Positions 3,455 through 34,630 of a stretch of DNA of 64,000 bases are shown in pieces (positions within the stretch are counted from its first letter, which is position 1; the number at the start of each line of letters is the position of its first letter). The notes beneath the pieces are model-generated. The model was not told where the DNA came from. It did no database searches and was given only the letters and a program-made list of their open reading frames with translations. The DNA lies in NCBI RefSeq assembly GCF_000006565.2, contig NC_031467.1:558001-622000 (forward strand), given 5' to 3'. The translations under genes and the position numbers were made by a program. The DNA comes from Toxoplasma gondii ME49 (Eukaryota > Apicomplexa > Conoidasida > Eucoccidiorida > Sarcocystidae).

Positions 3455-5538
3455 CCTCACGAGAAACGGGTACGCCGTAATAGTATACTGGGGTTGGCCG
3501 CAACGGTTGTGCTTGCACATGCCGCCGTTATTGCGATGACCAAACATGTTAGTAAACCTTACTTAACGTATGTTGATTTTACACAGTCGTCGACTTCGTG
3601 CTTGTTCGCGATGAGCGAGCATCGGATTGCGCCGTCAGCGAGTTCGTTACTCACGCAGTGCATGGCTTGGTAGAGTTCGGTTGTGCCGTCACACAGAGGT
3701 CACATATCGTTACTGATGCACAGAAAACAAACACTAACACAAGATCAAAAGATACAGCGGAGCCGTGACTCACGGTTGCTTGTCTCCTCCTCCCTCGGCA
3801 ACTGAGTAACTGCCACTCTCCCTGCGCAGAGCACATCAGACACTAGAAGGAGGAATCGCCAGAGATATCGAATCGCAGTCATGATCCACTAACCAGAGAA
3901 GCAGTGAGTTTCTGGCCGTCCGTTAGACATACACCAAATGATTCGCGCAGTCTCAGTGGCGCTTGATTGATCATGAGCGCAGGCATTCACTGGAGGTGTC
4001 TTCACTTTTGGCGAACCTACATTACAAACCTGTTCTGCAGCAACAGTGTTAGGCGTAGTCCGTTGTGTGCTGTGCCCCAATACCAAACGGACTTACGTTT
4101 AAAATGATGATCATTTAAGACAATGGAACTTTGATCTCCAGTAAACAAAGATCTAAACCAGTAGTTTATCACGTAGTATATACACTCCAGAAAAAGACAA
4201 TGAACAATCCTGTCTCAGAGCAGTCGTCGGTACCAGTTTACGATTGTACCGTGACAACAGTAATCGGTTTACTACGTTCAAGACATAACCGATGACGAAC
4301 AACCTTGATGTCGTAGAAGGCTGAAATTCCAGCGCTTTCAGCTGTCTTACGCAGTCAGGTGGGGTGGTGATGTATAGCACTCATAAAGAGCGGACATCGG
4401 AGATTCTGTGTAAAGCGTAACAAATTCGTCAAGCGAGCAGTAGCTGTTTTAGCAACTTACATGTACGCATAGCTGGGTCGACTGTTTTTCGGTGGTTGTC
4501 GGAGGGTAAACCGTCACGGCACGCACAACAGAATCTGTTTTTCATTTGATTCGTCGCTGCAAACGCATGGGAAAAAAGAGAGATTTCGTCGTCTATTGAG
4601 GTTGGCAGTGTTGTCAAAATGGCATACGGCTGTTGTTTTTGCTGATTACTTCCGTGCTTACGAGAGGCCTGATTAATTACGGTGCTGTCCTCCAATAACA
4701 GCACCTTGCTCAGCAGAGTACATGAATGAAGCTGTTTAACGTACTGGCGTGAATAACTCATCATATCGGTTGCCGGGTAACAACTATCGAAAATATTCGT
4801 GCGAAAAGGAAATCGTTGTGGCTGTGGTAAGACTGTAATTCATATATCGTGGAACACAACAAATACGCTCACCTGGGTTTGAGTATGCATGTGGCGGTTG
4901 TAAATACACAGTCAATCTGAATTCGTGCTAACTGTTGTGGTGACACGGTGAACCGTTCCGCCATGCACAGGAACATACTTCAACGTTTCCGGTGATTGTT
5001 AGTCTCTATTTTTAAGTGTACGTTGCATGCGGTGCCTGGGCACCTAGTCGCTTCAGACGGTTGTTGACTTCTTTTGCTTGCGCTTTTGAGGAGTTGTTGC
5101 TGAATGCCAAATATTTGCGAACGTTTCGCTGTTGCGGGCGTGCGTCCAGAGTCAAGCAGCTTCCTTCTCCCTCCATGTCAACAGAGGGAAAGGCGCCTGG
5201 CTTGTGCTTTCAGCCGGAGGCAAGAAAAAGCGGTTTCCTCCCCCGCCCTCCATGCGTCGATAGTTTTCGGAGGCAAAATCTACTTCGTTTCTGGAAGGGC
5301 TGCGAGACTAAGATGCGTTCGCCCCTAGCGATCAGTCAGAGAGGCCGAAAAATCCGTTCCCTTTTGCCCATGCTTATAGTTTGAAACCAATGGCGTCAAA
5401 AGCAAGCATGTTTTCCCAGGCAGAGTCTTTTCTACACCCGTTTGCAGAAGCGTTCAACGCACGCACACTTCTTCACTGTCGTCCCTATGGGGTGGGAATG
5501 TTTCTCCCCCGTGTGAACTACTTCACTAGACATTCGTT
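3455..5538. other. Intergenic stretch
   Basis: Relatively AT-rich, with only short frames on both strands and none with recognisable content. A TGCATGC motif, a common element of coccidian promoters, lies at 5024-5030 upstream of the EF-hand/TMEM65 gene. Upstream non-coding exons of that gene could lie here, but I cannot show one. Confidence 0.4.
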
Positions 5539-7587
5539 ATGTCGATGTCTTGTGGCGACGTCAGAGACAGGAGAAAAACATTGTCTCCGTCTTTCTCATG
5601 TTCGTCTTTCGATACTACTGTCGCGATCCACAGCCGTTCATACTCACTGTTCAGACTTTTGCCCATCTGGATGCCAGCAGTATTAACGGCCAAACAGGCC
5701 GCTCTGCCCAAAAAACAACGGGCAATCCGCGACCTGGCGTCCTTTTCTTGTTCCTGCAGGGAGTTCGTCACTCGCTGTAACCTATGGTTTAGCCGTCAAT
5801 CATGGAAGACTTCCCCGAAGCCACTCAACACTTCCATATTCGGTGGCTGCTCCTTGACGTGCCTGTCTAATGGTTTTATTCCTTTGAATGCTTCGCACCG
5901 AGCAGAGAAAATCGTTTGCATGGAGTCATATGGAGTGCCTACCAGAACAATCTTTCAAAGAAGAGGAGAAACGTTCAAGGCAATGATGTTCTTTCGGTGT
6001 AGCGTGCCAAGGCGAAAGGGATACGCCAATTTTTCTCGACCTACGGGAAAACAGGATGGAGTGGGGTCCGCTGAAAGAAAACAGACGAGACAACCGTTTT
6101 CCTTCTTCACGCCTGTGTCTGACACGACACAGGTGCTGCCTCCTTGTTTTCCGCCTCCGCAGCAGTCACCACTTCCAACCATTCTGTTGCCACCAGAACC
6201 ATTAAATCGACAGCCACGGGCTGGTCGGGATAATTCTGAAGATCACAGTGCAGACACCGTGTTTACAGGCATTGACACCAACAACGATGGATTCGTTTCG
6301 AAGGAAGAATTTCGGAACTGGTACAACACCCACGTGTTGCCGCGGCTCCCTGGAGATTTACATATGCCTGCAGAGTCAATGTCTGAGGACAAAGGCGACC
6401 CACCTGTGATGCGTGATGATTGCAAGACGCAGCAAAGTGCAACCGAGAAAATTCCCAGAGGAGAGTCATACGTGGACAACCGTACCGCCATGCTAGTCGC
6501 TCTCTGGTCAGGTGCGCCGTTCCTCGGCTTCGGCTTCATGGACAACTGGTAAGGAGTGACGGACTGGACATTTCAACATAGTCACTGACGGGAAAGTTCT
6601 CGGTGATAGAGGATTCCCTGATATTCAACAGAGAGCGGAGATGTCTTCCCATCCTCATATGAAGAAATGCACTGATAAATATACGTAGCCAATATAGATG
6701 AAGCTTGGTTTCTTGGGGATGGCTTTCACATCCATTGATATACGTAGCGACACCGGGAAACGACCGAGTGGTCACGTGAGTAATTTCGCTAGACCAGCTA
6801 TAAATCTATCCAATACAGTGCGACATCAGGTGTTATGAAGCGTCTGGTTAGAACCAGCTTACGGAAGGCGCAACCGTCGGCTATGGGAAAGACTTAACTC
6901 TCCCAGTGAGTTGGGACACTCGTAGCGTTGTTATGAAAGAGAAGATCACTTTGGTGCTGTCTCATGTATCCCCCTTCAGCTTGATGCTTCTTTGTGGCGA
7001 CCTTATCGACTCCTATTTGGGCGCCTTTCTGGGCGTCACGACGCTTACAGTAAGGTCCCTTTTGCCTGTCTGCTTGAATACATTCCAAGAACAGAGAACG
7101 CACTTTGCTATTCTCCATACAACACCTGCTCCTCTCGATATTAATTTTACGCGTATCGCTGAGGACGCTTCAGCCTCGCTTCGCCTGGTGAAACTGCGGC
7201 CGATTCGACGATGGTCTATCTCTCGCATAAATGCATGAAATGTGAGTAGGCATATAGGAACTTTTCCTGATTCCCGTCCCGAGGAGGTGCATTGATGTTT
7301 TTGAGTCACCGGTCGTACCGTACGAACGCGTCTGCCGTGCACACTCATCCGCGGACCTCGTCTGCCTTTAATGGAAAATACTTGCGTCTCTACAAGTGAA
7401 CATCGAGAGTGGTGAGCATTTCTGACTCTCCTTCGCTTCTCTGTTTTTCTCATGTTCATAGGCAGCAGCACTAGGAAATTTGTTCTCTTGCACAAGCGGA
7501 GTCGTGACAGGACGCTGCGTGGAACAACTCGCATATCGAACTGTTTGTGAGGCCGACCTACATTTGCCTGTCCTACCCTCACTTTGA
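5539..7587 (+). CDS. EF-hand protein with TMEM65-type membrane domain
   Basis: Three exons fit in phase: (5539 or 5983)..6548, 6980..7049 and 7462..7587. They give 401 aa from the first ATG or 253 aa from the ATG at 5983. Exon 1 carries a canonical EF-hand loop DTNNDGFVSKEE at 6274-6309. It ends inside the membrane signature APFLGFGFMDN, which continues in exon 2 as CLMLLCGDLIDSYLGAFLGV and in exon 3 as AAALGNLFSCTSGVV followed by VEQLAYR. This order and spacing match the TMEM65 family, an inner mitochondrial membrane protein linked to Na/Ca exchange. The part after 5983 starts MMFFRCSVPRRKGYANF, basic enough for a mitochondrial presequence, so I favour that start. The family's usual third membrane helix is not seen. 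Exon 3 stops at LPVLPSL, though a GTGAGG at 7548 could be a donor to a further exon. Calcium-regulated mitochondrial transport is inferred. Confidence 0.72.
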
Positions 7588-20100: not shown

Positions 20101-23100
20101 TGTCTTCTTGTGACCTCTGTCTCTACAACATCGGACATTCCTTCTGCACAATTCGGTCCGCGGGAAATCTAAACAAGAACTGCCTGCGAGGCAGAGACCT
20201 CCATATCTAACGGGTTTCTGTCTTTACTTTGGATTCCACGTGTCCATAGCCGCATGCAGATTTACAAATGCTACACTACTATTGATGATTACGACGAAGT
20301 AGAGCGAGTTCCTTCTCATCTACGCGTCTGCGTACGACACGAAACTCGAAATGTCTCAACAAAACATGAAACGAAACACCTCAGCAATCGATTCTTTTTC
20401 GCAATCACTGTAGAGGACGCACTCTTGAAATAGATCGATTGCGCATCCGTAGGAAGGAGAGGCGGCAGTTGGGTGAGACATGAGTGGACGTGTCCGTACA
20501 CCTTGATAGTGAAATTGAATTCGTCCTGAACGACAAGGACAACAGAAATACATTTTCCAGAGGTGAAACAACTCCCGAGGAAAAGAATAGTCAAAGATAG
20601 AGCCATCAATCATGAGGTCGGTCTCATTCCTCGACATGCATACACATACATATTTACATATCTGTAGAGAGAGATCGCATTCATTGGTTGAAGCTTCGGA
20701 AGCCGTCGAGGCCGAGCAGGAAGAACACTGCCCAGGTTGTGTTTTCGATTTTTAGGTCGCAGTGTCTCACTCGATTTTCCCAGATCTCTTTTCCTTCGCT
20801 TTTTGTGACTCTGTCTCCATTTCCGTCGTTTCCTCTTCGACCCCTGCGCTTCTCTGCGTCAAGATCCTCGTCTGTGCGTAGATGTAGCTTTTCTCTACAC
20901 CGCCCTAGACACTTGACCTTCGTTTCACCTTGACTCCTGTTGCACTCTCTGGTTGCATCCTCTCTCATCCTTGTTCCGTGTCGCGTTGATCCCTTCTGGA
21001 CTCGCTGGGATCTTCTCTTCCTCCAGTTCCATCCGTTGGACATTTCTTCACCTGGCCCCTGAATCTTTTCTCTCCCCTCCACCCGTGTGTACCTTTTGCG
21101 AGTACTGGGAGACGACCAGGACGAATTCCGACGCGTCGAGAAGTTGGTGGCCTTCGAACCCTGGAAGCGGCGGCCTGCCTCCAGCCGCTTCCTTTTTCCC
21201 CTTCTCTTCGCGCTTCGCGGAGTTGTCGGAGGGGAACCGGCTGCCTTCGTCGCTCGCGTCTCTCGCGAAGAGATCGCGGAAAACGTGTGGGTGAACGCGG
21301 AGTTTGACCAGCGTGCATTCGCCGTTGCTGTAGACGCCCTGCTTCGCCGGAGGCGGGGGACAGGTCGCTCGCTCAGAGGCTGCATGCAGGTGAATGGCTA
21401 GGTACTTCGTCGCCAAGTCCTTTTGCCTCTCGCGTACGTGTCGCGAAAGGAGAATCCAGAGCTCCACGGGTTGATTTTCCTGGGAGAACGAAGGCACGGG
21501 AGAGAGCGAGGCGGTGTGAGGCGTGCCAGGAGGCGAGTTCGACGGCATCGGCAGAGAGGCTGCAGACGCCGGAGAGGTCAGAGAAGGAAAAGACAGAAAC
21601 GGGTACGGCCCCGCTAGCGCAGAAGAGGCGAAGTCTTCGGGACGAGGACTGATGCGCAGGTGAAACTGCGGGTTGAACGCAACCATGTGTGAATCGTCTG
21701 CCAACGACGAATTCTCGATGAACGGCGAACGTTCCCACCTGAAGGAAAAAGGAACGAACAACAGGCTCCAGCAACAGATCCCGACAGAAAGTGGAGGGGG
21801 ATAGAGAGAACGCGTTTTTTCGAGGGACGTTGAAAACCCACGAAACACGGGAGAGACGCAAACACCTGGGAGAGAAGACGACTGGGGTTCGAGGGAGATG
21901 AAGAAAGTCAGAGAGGACGGGAGCGAGCCGCGAGAACAGGAAATACAAACGTGGGCGACCTCGGCAAGGTCCCGCGGAGAAAAGAACTGAAAGAGGAGAA
22001 ACGCTGAAAAACGTAGCGACCTGACTGATCGCTCACTTCGAATGAATCTCTGCTTGGTAAGGAAAACAACTATTGTCCCAGCAGACGTAGAGGTGCGAGA
22101 ACCACCGGACGACGTCCAGCCACTCGATCCAGAAGCAGCCGCAATCCGACTTGGCCTGAACGCGGGAAGCCACAACACGCACCGGAAAAAAACGCATACG
22201 AGGAAGAAAAGAAGAGAGAAGCGCAAACGCAGGAGACATCAAAGGCGCAGCATGGAACGACGGAGATGCACTCGATCGAGCGCATGTGCAGGAACCCCGG
22301 AAAGACGGAGACAGAGACACGTCGCCAGGTCTCAACACACATGGAAATGGACTCTATACGACCAGACAACCCCAACGCGCAAGCGAAGACGAGACACCGA
22401 ACAGTACAAGAGAAAAATAAGAGGTTGGAGGGAGAAAACGAAGAGACAAGAGAAACAGACCGCAAGAAACGAGAGTCAGAGGGTTTTACCGAAAGGAAAC
22501 TCGCTTACGGCTGTTGCAGGATCGTAGCCAAGTTTCTCCTTCATGTTTTGCGTCCAGCTCGCTTTGTCTGAAGGAGAAAACTTGCCTTTCCAGCGGACGC
22601 ATCCCCATGGGTTTTTTACGTACAACAATCGATGTCCCTCGATTTCCGCGTAATTCAAAATGCTGTATGCATGCCGAGCGACGATGCCTGAAACACAACA
22701 ATTTTGTGGACCTCTCAAAGTCGTTCCGCACGGTCTCTTCTTCTTCATCTGCCCCTGAAGCCTCCCCCGCATTTCGCTCTCGCGACGAGTTCTTTTCGGC
22801 AGAACAGAGAGTTCCTGGCCTCTGCCGTTCCCCTGTTTTCCACCCGTTTTTTCCCCTCTTGTCTCCGGGGGTTCTTCCCTAGTCTCTCGCTTTCTTCTGT
22901 AGCGATTCCGCCGAGTTTCGCGTCTCTGTGTATCTCCCCCAGTATTCTCTCTTCTCACACGGAAACCCTCTCATGCACTGCTTCCTCCTCACCCGTTTGT
23001 GTTCGACCCTCACGTTGTGTCTTCTCTCCCCTTTTCTCCTCCATTTCCTTCTTCCTTGAGTTTCCTCCATCTTTCTCTCTCTTCCTCTCCCTTTCATCCT

Positions 23101-26100
23101 TTGTGTCTTTCTCCCCTTCGCTTCTTCCGCAAGTGAAACGCCGATCTCTTCCCTGTCGACCCTTGCTTTCCTCTCTTCTTCCCTCTGACACGCCACCCTG
23201 CGGTCTCTGTCGCACGCCTCTCGAAAAGTCGACGCATTCGTCTTCTCTGCTGTTCTCTGGATGCCTTACCGCTGCTGACGGAGACGCCTTCGGGGAAGTC
23301 AAGTCCACTTGGAGCAGCGTCGGAGACTTCGCTGGTGCCTAGACAGGCGACGCACCGTCCCGCAGTTAATCCGAGGTACAGTTGCGTCCAGATTTGCGTC
23401 CATTTGGGATCTTTGACGACCTCGTCATCCTCGTTTTCGCGACCCGTGACGATCGGTTTGTGCGAAGCCGGCGACCCGGTGTGAACGTCGCTGCGGAAGG
23501 GAATCGTTTCTGGAATCCACCCGGTGAGGTGGTACAGATCTGCGCCGGGGTTCGACCCCTGCATCGAGTAGCTACCTCCCATGAGCTTCACGAACGCTTT
23601 CTCGAGAAGCGTGACCCAGAGCTCGCTTTTGTTCGACGAGTGCGCCGCGAGGAGTTTGTTGTCCTTTCTGACGGGGACGTAATCATCGATCAAAACCTTT
23701 CGAGGAACCCCGTTGAAGTATAGCCTGCAGGCGTACATGCCCCGTGGGTTGAAGATAGGTCCGACCCTTTCGCCTCCATCTTGCGGTCTTCTGCCGGCCT
23801 CCGAGACGGCCGGGATCGTGCCCTGGGGGTAGAGGAGGCCTGAGAGCACGGGGACGTTGTGCTTTCGCTCGAACTCCGAAAGGACCGCGAGAGAGGAGAG
23901 AAAGGAGCAGTCGCCCACGAACCCCTGACGAATCGCGCGGCTGTTCGGCACATCTTGAATTACCACAGGGTCCTTGACAATCTCCGATAGTCGCTTCCAG
24001 GCCGCGAACTTCTGCTGCTGCTTCCGACTCAGAGACATCACCCCATCCGGGTCCGTCCACTTCCCATCAGGACCCCACTCTTCGCAGCGACCCAGAGCCC
24101 CAGGGTCCCCACACGGAGACAGCGTCGCCAGGTCGCATGCGGGCGCCTCGGCGCTGTCTCCGGGGACACCCAACTCGCCAGGAGACACCTCGCCCTCCGC
24201 CTCCGTCCGGACTACGGGGTCGCTGACCGAGGCGCCAGCAAACGAGCTGCCGCCAGTAGGAGAAGACGCGGACGCGAGAGGAATCGACGTACAGCACGCA
24301 GGCGGACGCGGACAGGGATGCGAACGAGCCTCACCCTCGAACCGAGAAGAGACAGCTCCGTCCTCTGAACAGGCAAACAACAGTGAGTTGAAGACCTTTG
24401 ACGGTGCGGACCACGCGTTGTCTCTGCCGGAGGGGGAGGGGCAGGAATGGCGTGTCTGAATGGGTAACTGGCCTCATGCGTGTGAATAACGAAGGAAGAC
24501 GGCTCTGCATATGCAGCCCAGTGAGGTAGAAAGTCTGTACGAAACGAGAAAGACTGTGGCTGCAAAGTGATATTTATCCACGTGAGACGCAGACTCTCTT
24601 CTCCCTCTTCTTCTTTTTCACCGAACTGGGGGCAGGGCCCCGGACAAAGCAGCACACTGATGACCGAAGAAAGCCGTCTACATCGTGTCTCTTCCGCAAA
24701 AGAGGACTCACCTGTCTTCCGTGTCTCGCGTCCCTGAGCGCGGCTGTTGCAGGCTTCTCTACTCCCCCCGCCTGTGTTGCGTCTCCTCCGTTCTCGGCTT
24801 TCCTGAGGGAACCCCCCGAATCCGTAAGACAGCGACTCGAGAGACTCCGTCACGTCTCCTTGGGCAGGCGCCGGATAATTTCGCTTAGTCCACCGACTCT
24901 TTTCCGTCGTTCTCCCTCCCTCCTCTCGACCTGCTCTCGCGTTTCCACATGCACTCGAAGCTAAGTGTCTACCGTTCACAGGGCTTTCTTGCGTACTCTT
25001 GACAAGTCCCTCGGGAGCCAGCTTCGCTCCCGCGTACATACCGCTCTCGAGTTCATCGCGGCCGCGCCCGTCTCCTCTCTCCGGTTCACTTCTCCGGTTC
25101 ACCCTGCCTCGTCTCCCACACGGAGGAGACACAGGACACGCGGCGACGGCCTCGCGCCGCGAAGGGCCTAAAGGAAACGGAGGTGGAGTGCTTGCATGCA
25201 TCGCGACGCTCTGCGACAGCGGCGAGCAAAGCGCGACGGGCGGCGGGCAGTGGACATAGAAGTTTTGCCGAATGTCGCCGTCTTCCTCGTTCCACGGCAA
25301 CATGACATACCGGCCTACGATGCTCGACTCGAGGAGAATCTCCGACACCGCGAGAGAACCGCTCAGATGCGAAGGCAGCAGCTTCTGCTGAGAGTACGCG
25401 AGCGGCGAGAGACAGCACAAGGCGTCCGAGTCAGCACACTTGTTGGAAACGCATGCACCCTTCTTCCATTGAGATAACGCAGCCGGGAACGCGGAACCTT
25501 GAGAGACAATCCCCGAACACCCGCTCTGCGTATGGCGCGGACGAGACCCCGAGACACGCCCTGAGGAAGGCCCCTCTGGGCGCGAGGGCGAGGCCGAGCT
25601 GACACGTCGCCGAACGAGGCTCCGGGAGCTGTCTCTTCGCCGAGCGGCGCTCCCTCGGTCGGGATCTACTCCACCGTCGCTGCATCCATCGCCTGAAGCA
25701 AAGGAACTGGAGGCGACGCCTGGGGTGGCCTTCCCATCCTTGGGGCGCGAGCACGCGCCTGCGATCGGCGCGGCGCTTCCAGCCTCGTCGCCGCGGCCCT
25801 GGCGACCACTGCTTCGCCTTTTGTACGGAGACGAAAAGATCGCAGCGGGACTCCCATCCTGCGACGCGCAGCTCCGCAGACTGCCCTTGCCTGGACCTGA
25901 CGTCGCCGTCTCAGGGGAGGGACACCCGCGCCCGCTGCATGTGCCGAGAGCCGGACCTGCGGGCGGGGCCTCTCGCGTCGATTCCGTCGCTCGCGTCGTC
26001 CCTGTTGACGCGAGACGAGCAGGCGATGTCATCAGGGTCTCCTGTTCGGATGGATGCGCCTCGCTGTCTCCTCTCTCCTTCACTTCCTCGCCCCTTCGTT

Positions 26101-31140: not shown

Positions 31141-34100
31141 TCACTTCTCGGGTTTGACACTGTGAAGTTGCACTCTCACGTCTGACGGGAAACTCTTCCG
31201 TTTCAAGGCGTGTTTCGTTTTTATGTATGCGTCAACGTTGTATGCGCAAGAACCAGCAGCATTGACTGTCAGTGTGGTTGGCCTGCTGATAAAGTGTCAT
31301 GGGATGCGCCGAGAGCACCATTTGCACCGCAGTTCCTGAGTAGTGACGTCCCAAAAAACGACACAGCCAACAGAATCATAAAGTGTCCCGAATTTTGAAA
31401 GTAGCGAAGACCACTCGATAATTGTGTACAGGAATCGATACCCCACAGGGATCCGTATAAGTTGCACTCGCTTTGGTCCCCTATTGGGCCCAGTCTGAGG
31501 AACGACACTCTGCGGTTCAGCACTAAGCACGCCCCGCAGTTTTCGAAAATCAAGAAGATGCAGCATCCGCCATTGTTTGTTTCAAGGTGTCAAGGGGATC
31601 CCTCTGTTCAATTCGAACCATAACTTTCCAGTCTTATTCGGGTTTCAATAGACGAAGTATGGACAGATTCTCACAGTCTTTCTGCATGCCCTCACCTGTT
31701 TCCTCTGACGCTTCGTGGATCCACCGCGTATACACTTCTGCGCGCCTGTACACTGTCGGATTTCCCCATAGGGCCCAATTACGACTCTGTTTTCCTTTAT
31801 CAGATGGCTCTCCGCAGCTCTCACGCAAGAACACGAAACCTCCTCTCCTAGACCAGGCAGATACTAATTTTCGAAGAAGAGTCTTCACTTCATCATCAGT
31901 GAGGTACATCAGTAACCAGTTGATGATTATTAAATCAAACGTAGACGGGGATTCTGCAGCGTTCAGAAACCAAAAGACACCCATAATGAAGAATGTTTTG
32001 GTGGAGTAACAGGAGTATGTACGAGTGGCTGCGAGTCTCCAACTGCTGTTCCCGTCCCGTGTGTCATTTGCATTGTAGTATCGGTAAGGATACTTTCCGT
32101 ACGGCTAAGTGTCATTACACCGTGAAACAATTAGATGTTCGCTGGCTCGACGATGACCAGATCCGCGCCGCGGAACATAGTCATTTCCACCATATCATGA
32201 ATTGGCGCCTTCGAATCAGAGTCGATTTACCGAAACACATTCTGAACTCGAATTCGAATCTGTATTCTAACGTATATTCGGAACGCCACACATTTTGTTC
32301 GTGGGCAGTGAAGTGAACGAATCTATAACTTTTGAACTCCCTCCGGCAGTTAACTGCCTACGCCTTATTAAGAAGTACAGTGCTGGCGACGGAGGAGAAT
32401 GGAGATTGATTCTCTGAGGTTCATTAAACACCAGTGCTGTTGCAAAAACTGTGACTACATATCAAAAGCAGCGCAAGGGTGGCGAGCTGAGGAAGAAGAC
32501 CCCCTAGGTCTACGTTATTTGCTGCGTTACAGAGAATACCAACAGGAAACATTGTCCCGTAAAACATGTTACTTACCTGTTTTGTGCGGTAGGCCAGTCG
32601 TGAACACCCTCTGGTCGTTCGTCGCAAGAGGGAACTCGATAGTCGTTGCATCGGCTACGACAAATAGGTCATTTTTCCTGCAAATACAAAAAGATTGCCA
32701 CGTGCGTCGAATCACTCTGTGAGACTTTCTAACCTAGAAAGCGTGTACTATCGTCACATACGGTGGCTACAGAGTCTGCATAAAACGCTGACAGACATTT
32801 GATGGAGAAGCAACGATGCCAGTTCTTTCACCTCGACGCTGCGTAAGTGCTCATAGCGGAAGCTTACCTGCTGTGGCAACTGCCATGTGCGTCTCGGTTG
32901 GCTTTGACGTACTCGTCAACAAAATCGACTGCCACTACCTGTGCCGCGAATTCCTGCAGCAGCCGTGTGAGGCGGCCAATCCCAGCGCCGAGTTCTAACA
33001 CCGTGTCAAAGTGAGGGGTCACTGCTAGGTGGGACCCCAGGTTTCGCCGTAGCAAAACATTTCCGTGCTCGTTTCCACAGTTCTCCAGTCGGATATTTGC
33101 GAGCTGTCGACACTCCGGGCACCGAGTATCATCTGGGTTCTTTTTCGTGCTCGGAAGGAGGTCTGTCTCATCCCCACCGCTCACTAGAAGAAGCGGGAGA
33201 GCGGATGAAATCAAACGGCATGACTTGGCTTCGCATGCTGACACGGAAGATTCCCTACAGCTGTTGACGTCTTCTGCTCCAGTTAGATTGTCGTGTTTTT
33301 CTCTGGTGCCCGACTGATCAGCCTTCTGTAGTGAAGCAGAAGCAGAAACCTCTGGTTTGCTTTCTTCTTTGAGCACTGCATCGACTGTGCACCGCATCAT
33401 GAGACTCATTACTTCTTGAGCGTCTGCACTACAAAAACCCTGATGACAAATAACAGCGGAGACAGATGTTCCGAACAAACACCAGGAGCTCACGTATTGA
33501 TTAATATGTGAGGACGCGCGAGAGACAGAGTTCTTGCGGAGAGTACACATAATGTCGTTCTTTAGCAGCATTCACACATTGCATTCCGTTGGTAAGCCTC
33601 GCCCTGCAAATATTCCCCGGATAAACCGAAGCATTCGAGACTATGTGAAAAACTTGATATTCTGTAGACGATATGGCTGCGCCTCGGAACTTTTGAGCCT
33701 ATCTGTAACCCATCGGAGCTGGATAAGTCTTCGCCGGCGTCATCAGGTTTACCTGTTCGCAGGCATCTTGTTTCAGTAGCATGCCCTCGTTCGTGAGGCC
33801 GAAATTGTTGAGTGCGCACTGCCAATAGACCCGGAACTTTTCCCTTGGGTTCCCTTTTGTCTTCTCTGACGATGACCGATTCCGGCCGGTGGAGTGAACG
33901 CCCACATTTTTGGAGCCTATAGAGGTGTACTGCACCGCTTGTTTCATTTTGCTTGCGTCTACCTTTGTAACGTCGCATTCACCTCGAGACTTCCGAGCAT
34001 CACCTGGTGTACACAAAGGCAACACATATTCAAATGCCACTCTCACTACATTTGAGTTTCGCGTCAAATCATCCCTGCAAAGGTTCCCTATGTTCTTGGA

Positions 34101-34630
34101 TCCAATTCACTTGCGTCTACCGCCCGAACTACGGCAAGCTGGTCGGTACATGAAGGGACCATCAATTGAACTCAGTGGTCAGTTCTACAGCTGGGTGAGT
34201 CAACGGGTTTTCGTTTCGCATTTCCTGTTCCTGCCGACAGTCGAGCTCCCCTGCAGCCCAGAGGCTTCATTACATCACCATTTAGGTCCGTCTCGGCCGT
34301 ACCGGAGCATATAGGAAGAAGCGCACCGTCTGTCAGAGTTACGGTTTCAGTTTCACCAGAATATGCGGAGAATCGTTTTGCGTTTGAGTCCGTTTGCTCG
34401 ACGTGGTAATTGTGACTGTTATTCGCCATATAGGGACTCTCTGCATCGTGGGCATTCTCGATGCTACAGCCGAGAGGTCCGGGAGAGTTCTCCAATGTAG
34501 GCGGATCTTCTGCGATTTGCCAACCCTCCCATAAATCTGATCTAGGAGTACGATGCGATTGTAGCAACAGTGATGGCGTAACCTCCCTTTCCTCCGCGCC
34601 CTCACGAGGCACAATCGTTCGAGGCTCCAT
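31141..34630 (-). CDS. Phosphoethanolamine N-methyltransferase-like protein (PMT)
   Basis: Six exons join in phase to 582 aa: 34630..34189, 34003..33753, 33439..32868, 32677..32577, 31953..31696 and 31265..31141. The first donor and the last exon are the weakest. PMT uses S-adenosylmethionine to methylate phosphoethanolamine toward phosphocholine in the cytosol. Core signatures in order are REKFRVYWQ followed by GMLLKQDA (residues about 200-230), motif I TVLELGAGIGRLTRLL (about 377-391) with VVAVDF, LFVVADAT, FDLIIINWLLMYLTDDEV (about 461-478), then GGFVFLRESC and NPTVYRRAEVYTRW. The NWLLMYL and FFRESC-like segments resemble domain 1 of plant PMT, not the Plasmodium single-domain enzyme. Oddities are about 200 N-terminal residues of unknown nature and a roughly 110-residue insertion before motif I that includes a CPEC. 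Only one methyltransferase domain is present. Substrate is inferred from motifs. Confidence 0.8.

Follow-up and report, generated by a model that had tools for sequence, protein, structure and literature searches.

A predicted stand-alone domain-I phosphoethanolamine methyltransferase in Toxoplasma gondii

Gene structure at the locus

We analysed a window of 64,000 nucleotides from the Toxoplasma gondii ME49 genome (contig C1, positions 558001-622000, in an assembly of 65.28 Mb and 1959 contigs) and found on its minus strand a gene, 34630..31232, with a splice model of six exons, five GT-AG introns and a 537-residue product, whose catalytic domain is, as judged from its sequence, that of a domain-I phosphoethanolamine methyltransferase (PMT). 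A preliminary description of this DNA had given the gene the span 31141..34630; the start at 34630 is borne out by protein P0001 from T. gondii GAB2, whereas the end at 31141 is a stop codon in the wrong frame and the last exon ends at 31232. When P0001 is compared with the spliced model, 508 positions are identical, 4 mismatched and 25 gapped. The gap corresponds to a 75-base in-frame piece of exon 3 (33184..33258, minus strand) that P0001 does not have, as though it had been removed by splicing; clearly similar coding sequence is present in the Neospora model P0003.

All six exons lie on the minus strand. Exon 1 (34303..34630) holds the start codon and a disordered N-terminal tail, most of which has a predicted local distance difference test score below 50 in the AlphaFold2 model of P0001, and it closes on the donor GTACGG, with agreement between the splice model and P0001. 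At the end of exon 2 (33753..34003) lies the cap region YWQ...GMLLKQDA, with the substrate-side equivalents of Trp14, Met26 and Met27 of Haemonchus contortus PMT1 (HcPMT1), while exon 3 (32868..33439) carries the remainder of the cap region, a poorly conserved insert, the S-adenosylmethionine (SAM) motif I LELGAGIGR and the post-I stretch VAVDFV. Exon 4 (32577..32677), placed by the splice model and the alignment, contributes the SAM-fold strand NDLFVVADATT, and exon 5 (31696..31953) contributes INWLLMYLTDDEV, GGFVFLRESC and NPTVYRRAEVYTRW. The closing strands, ...MTLYQQANHTDSQCCWFLRIQR, and the stop codon are found in exon 6 (31232..31335), into which the match to Arabidopsis PMT1 (AtPMT1; query 338-532) extends. 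The translation of exon 6, GTAVQMVLSAHPMTLYQQANHTDSQCCWFLRIQR, is the same in P0001 and P0002, where the closing strand reads ...SQCCWFLRIQR, and P0003 and P0005-P0013 end similarly; in P0004, the Besnoitia model, the C-terminal end is different.

Family assignment

The preliminary description had recognised a PMT domain-I enzyme in a coccidian from five motif stretches, and this is borne out by sequence, fold and tree. All five stretches are encoded by minus-strand frames that can be joined by splicing, with YWQ...GMLLKQDA at residues 169-190, LELGAGIGRLTRLL from 341, INWLLMYLTDDEV from 428, GGFVFLRESC with its RESC at 461, and NPTVYRR..VYTRW from 482. The predicted model has a class I SAM fold with the motif I ELGAGIGR, the series YW..M(M/L)L, NWLLMYL, RESC, NPTxYR is complete, and 17 columns are invariant across 30 family members. 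Upon searching the PDB with phmmer, the corrected protein matched AtPMT1 best (E 8.6e-23), with NTMT1 at 3.4e-4, and the closest solved relatives of the catalytic domain are the Arabidopsis and Haemonchus PMT1 enzymes. A UniRef homologue search, for which the query was an earlier join with another last exon, recovered orthologues in Hammondia, Neospora, Besnoitia and Cystoisospora, several coccidian proteins already bearing the automatic name phosphoethanolamine N-methyltransferase. Because of the AtPMT1 match and the orthologues in four other coccidian genera, the motif series is far beyond chance. No name from Eimeria, Cyclospora or Sarcocystis appears among the matches listed (at least 118) in this word-limited search, in which names are cut short or partly missing and which does not in itself establish absence.

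The protein ends after domain I, with no second, C-terminal methyltransferase domain. Candidate assignments to coenzyme Q or generic methyltransferases were rejected, the general Pfam methyltransferase matches reaching at most 37.1 bits and constituting weaker evidence than the PMT matches, and all matches to other methyltransferases in NCBIfam fell under the cut-off. Overall, in the profile and phylogeny check that the preliminary description had proposed, PMT matches outweigh the other methyltransferase families and the protein falls among domain-I PMTs. Among the coccidian models, the public Neospora entry NCLIV_000800 (P0003) lacks the middle exons, which carry NWLLMYL; this exon skipping is perhaps an annotation error and not a loss.

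Phylogenetic placement

We built a tree of 53 rows, comprising 46 domain-I rows hand-picked from 233 proteins and 7 domain-II rows, the latter being four proteins and the second halves of three among the same 46; the Neospora protein P0003 was omitted on account of the middle exons absent from its model. Domain-I and domain-II rows split at 100/100 support. The T. gondii gene falls within a clade of 15 single-domain rows (100/99), made up of four coccidia, Cardiosporidium, Rhytidocystis, two transcriptome entries and seven further rows, with a long branch leading to it (0.87 changes per column), and the other single-domain rows, P0041, P0115, P0116 and P0118, lie outside. The sequence prefix GHVS corresponds to Rhytidocystis (PMC7522995).

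The Plasmodium PMT is placed in the domain-II branch at 100/100, and in approximately unbiased (AU) tests a tree holding it together with P0138 and the 15-row clade was rejected (p 0.000175). Holding the 15-row clade with plants was weakly rejected (p 0.039, a value weakened by three environmental rows that were added to the plant group after the tree was built). The coccidian gene is not an orthologue of Plasmodium PMT. The preliminary description had called the enzyme plant-like, which holds for its resemblance; descent from plants is not supported, the gene belonging to a separate clade. P0138 itself, a GHVU transcriptome protein, is a domain-II, Plasmodium-like PMT and sister to Plasmodium (94/85).

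When compared with known systems, the N-terminal domain of AtPMT1 (5WP4) is the counterpart of the coccidian protein, but in the plant enzyme a second domain is fused to it, whereas the coccidian protein stops after domain I and has a disordered insert and tail. Domain I of HcPMT1 (4KRG) carries Met27 where the coccidian protein has Leu; the worm enzyme has an extra C-terminal part, and H. contortus also possesses a PMT2, for which no counterpart was recognised in T. gondii. The Plasmodium PMT (3UJ6, 4IV0) is likewise a single SAM domain of the phosphobase methyltransferase branch in an apicomplexan, yet it differs in its domain-II placement and in the rejected joint grouping. The single-domain homologues of Cardiosporidium (P0150, 330 residues) and Rhytidocystis (P0009, 287 residues) have domain I alone and share the 15-row clade, although they are shorter and lack the long insert.

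Search for partner enzymes in the genome

Six-frame protein searches of the one assembly with three queries, namely P. falciparum PMT, the eukaryotic domain-II protein P0138 and the bacterial-type domain-II protein P0136, recognised no domain-II PMT. All three reach one frame only, on contig C14 (E 3.4e-5, 0.017 and 0.056, respectively), which was identified by eye as an arginine methyltransferase of the PRMT type (VLDVGSGTGILSLFAAKAGA...) and rejected as a candidate. As a control, the distant domain-I query P0010 gave three matches at the window locus (1.2e-19, 9.4e-4 and 0.30) and one elsewhere (0.51), and with P0001 as query all seven matches were at the locus, the gene occurring once. A family search with PF13489 returned four places, and the window gene was not listed, so such searches can miss genes split by introns. 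The PEMT family PF04191 has a single genome match, above its cut-off at 28.8 bits, in a frame that looks isoprenylcysteine methyltransferase-like by eye (RHPAYTGWFYW); a lipid phosphatidylethanolamine methyltransferase in this genome therefore appears unlikely. The Kennedy-pathway families choline/ethanolamine kinase and CDP-alcohol phosphotransferase are both present.

Predicted single methylation and its alternatives

In HcPMT1, residues Trp14, Met26, Met27 and Trp123 are described as constraining the pocket to the conversion of phosphoethanolamine to phospho-monomethylethanolamine (PMME) (PMC10269165). The T. gondii protein has W, M, L and W at the equivalent sites, three being identical and the change of Met27 to Leu conservative. 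Across the 15-row clade, the first site is W in 13 of 15 rows and F in two, the second is M in all 15, the third is divided between M (8) and L (7), and the fourth is W throughout; L at the third site also occurs in some animal domain-I rows. The catalytic core is more conserved than the tail in all four other coccidian genera compared (in Cystoisospora, 114/195 for the core against 25/146 for the N-terminal tail), which argues for a working enzyme.

We consider that the gene probably encodes a stand-alone domain-I phosphoethanolamine N-methyltransferase yielding PMME only, and we infer the substrate, the single methylation and the fate of the product as follows. SAM would bind the LELGAGIGR fold, and the cap region (YWQ...GML), NWLLMYL and RESC/NPTxYR would close on phosphoethanolamine, whose nitrogen would receive one methyl group to give PMME. 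The narrow pocket would disfavour the next two methylations, so that, with no domain-II enzyme recognised, the route would stop at PMME, which may feed the CDP-ethanolamine branch as phosphatidyl-monomethylethanolamine or remain a soluble pool. The preliminary description had proposed a full path from phosphoethanolamine to phosphocholine or at least a first methylation step; the former is not supported, given the lack of a recognised domain-II partner, the HcPMT1-like pocket residues, one of them changed to Leu, and the labelling of tachyzoites discussed below, and the latter seems, from the sequence, the better reading.

Several observations weigh against a PMME-forming enzyme. The Met27 equivalent is Leu, and the joined protein passes the Pfam cut-off of PF05891, the N-terminal protein methyltransferase family (36.2 versus 27 bits). 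The Trp pair occurs in N-terminal protein methyltransferases too, so that the substrate cannot be assigned from these features alone. However, that the gene encodes such a methyltransferase (NTMT/PF05891), or another common one, is extremely improbable and already close to refuted, given the far stronger match to AtPMT1 than to NTMT1 and a far better PF05891 gene on contig C8, with three exon matches of 55-74 bits each that together span profile positions 3-218, compared with 21 bits at the window locus. Extracellular tachyzoites supplied with [14C]ethanolamine and SAM are reported to show no label in phosphatidylcholine (PMC11166882), which is compatible with an enzyme that goes no further than PMME and equally with one that is unexpressed or inactive in tachyzoites. 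NBD-labelled (nitrobenzoxadiazole) phosphatidylethanolamine was likewise unmethylated (PMC7949121), a result that bears on lipid methylation, not on phosphobase methylation. Additionally, the passages of the lipid literature consulted, with no search targeted at it, do not mention phosphatidyl-monomethylethanolamine.

A fold that was kept while the substrate switched, to a different phosphorylated small amine or amino acid or to some other metabolite, is unlikely in our view: the long separate branch, the absence of a recognised partner enzyme and the unusual T. gondii headgroup phosphatidylthreonine (PMC4643901) would suit it, but RESC, NPTxYR and NWLLMYL are common to domain-I PMTs and the 17 invariant columns extend over the 30 members. 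We give slightly less credence to one enzyme performing all three methylations like the Plasmodium PMT, which would amount to a concealed route that needs no choline, possibly one used outside the tachyzoite stage. Single-domain three-step enzymes do exist in Plasmodium, Leu for Met27 could slightly widen the pocket, and specificity can shift, as the domain-II-type PMT of T. canis methylates phosphoethanolamine and HcPMT2 does not significantly do so (PMC10269165); against this, the nematode domain-I PMT1 enzymes described in the same paper yield PMME (PMC10269165), the Trp14, Met26 and Trp123 equivalents are kept, and ethanolamine label did not reach phosphatidylcholine in extracellular tachyzoites. 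Lastly, the gene might be what is left of a lost pathway, silent or in decay, to which the missing partner, the incomplete Neospora model and the differing end of the Besnoitia model could point; this too is unlikely, as the reading frame is open, the introns are GT-AG, the core is better conserved than the tail in four of four other coccidian genera and the Cystoisospora model retains all motifs.

Implications for apicomplexan phosphobase metabolism

The preliminary description had noted that the enzyme is discussed in Plasmodium and that Toxoplasma-type parasites are described as depending on choline and the CDP-choline route. The legend of a 2021 pathway figure (Fig 5) comparing P. falciparum and T. 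gondii assigns PMT to P. falciparum only (PMC7909640). For Eimeria falciformis, PEMT is listed as missing and the section concerned makes no mention of PMT (PMC5964319), and no paper describing this coccidian gene as a PMT was found in the open-licence literature searched; automatic names of that kind exist in UniRef. A domain-I PMT conserved in five coccidian genera contradicts the 2021 figure and leads one to expect a metabolite that has been overlooked. Comparisons among apicomplexan PMTs are affected as well, the Plasmodium enzyme and the coccidian gene representing different branches. Phosphobase methylation is reported to be lacking in mammalian cells (PMC10269165), so the enzyme, if active, would be parasite-specific relative to the mammalian host.

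We tentatively suggest, as a possibility that we hold with some doubt, that the phosphobase pathway split in apicomplexans, the Plasmodium line having kept the three-step domain-II enzyme and the coccidia, Rhytidocystis and Cardiosporidium having kept domain I alone, in which case coccidia would make PMME and then phosphatidyl-monomethylethanolamine as the end product. If this were true, the latter would be a headgroup that goes unmentioned for Toxoplasma in the passages of the literature consulted.

Elsewhere in the window, an open frame at 5530-6549 on the plus strand shows weak EF-hand matches under the curated cut-offs, and another at 23097-24473 on the minus strand encodes a cysteine protease domain of the calpain family (PF00648, E 4.2e-24).
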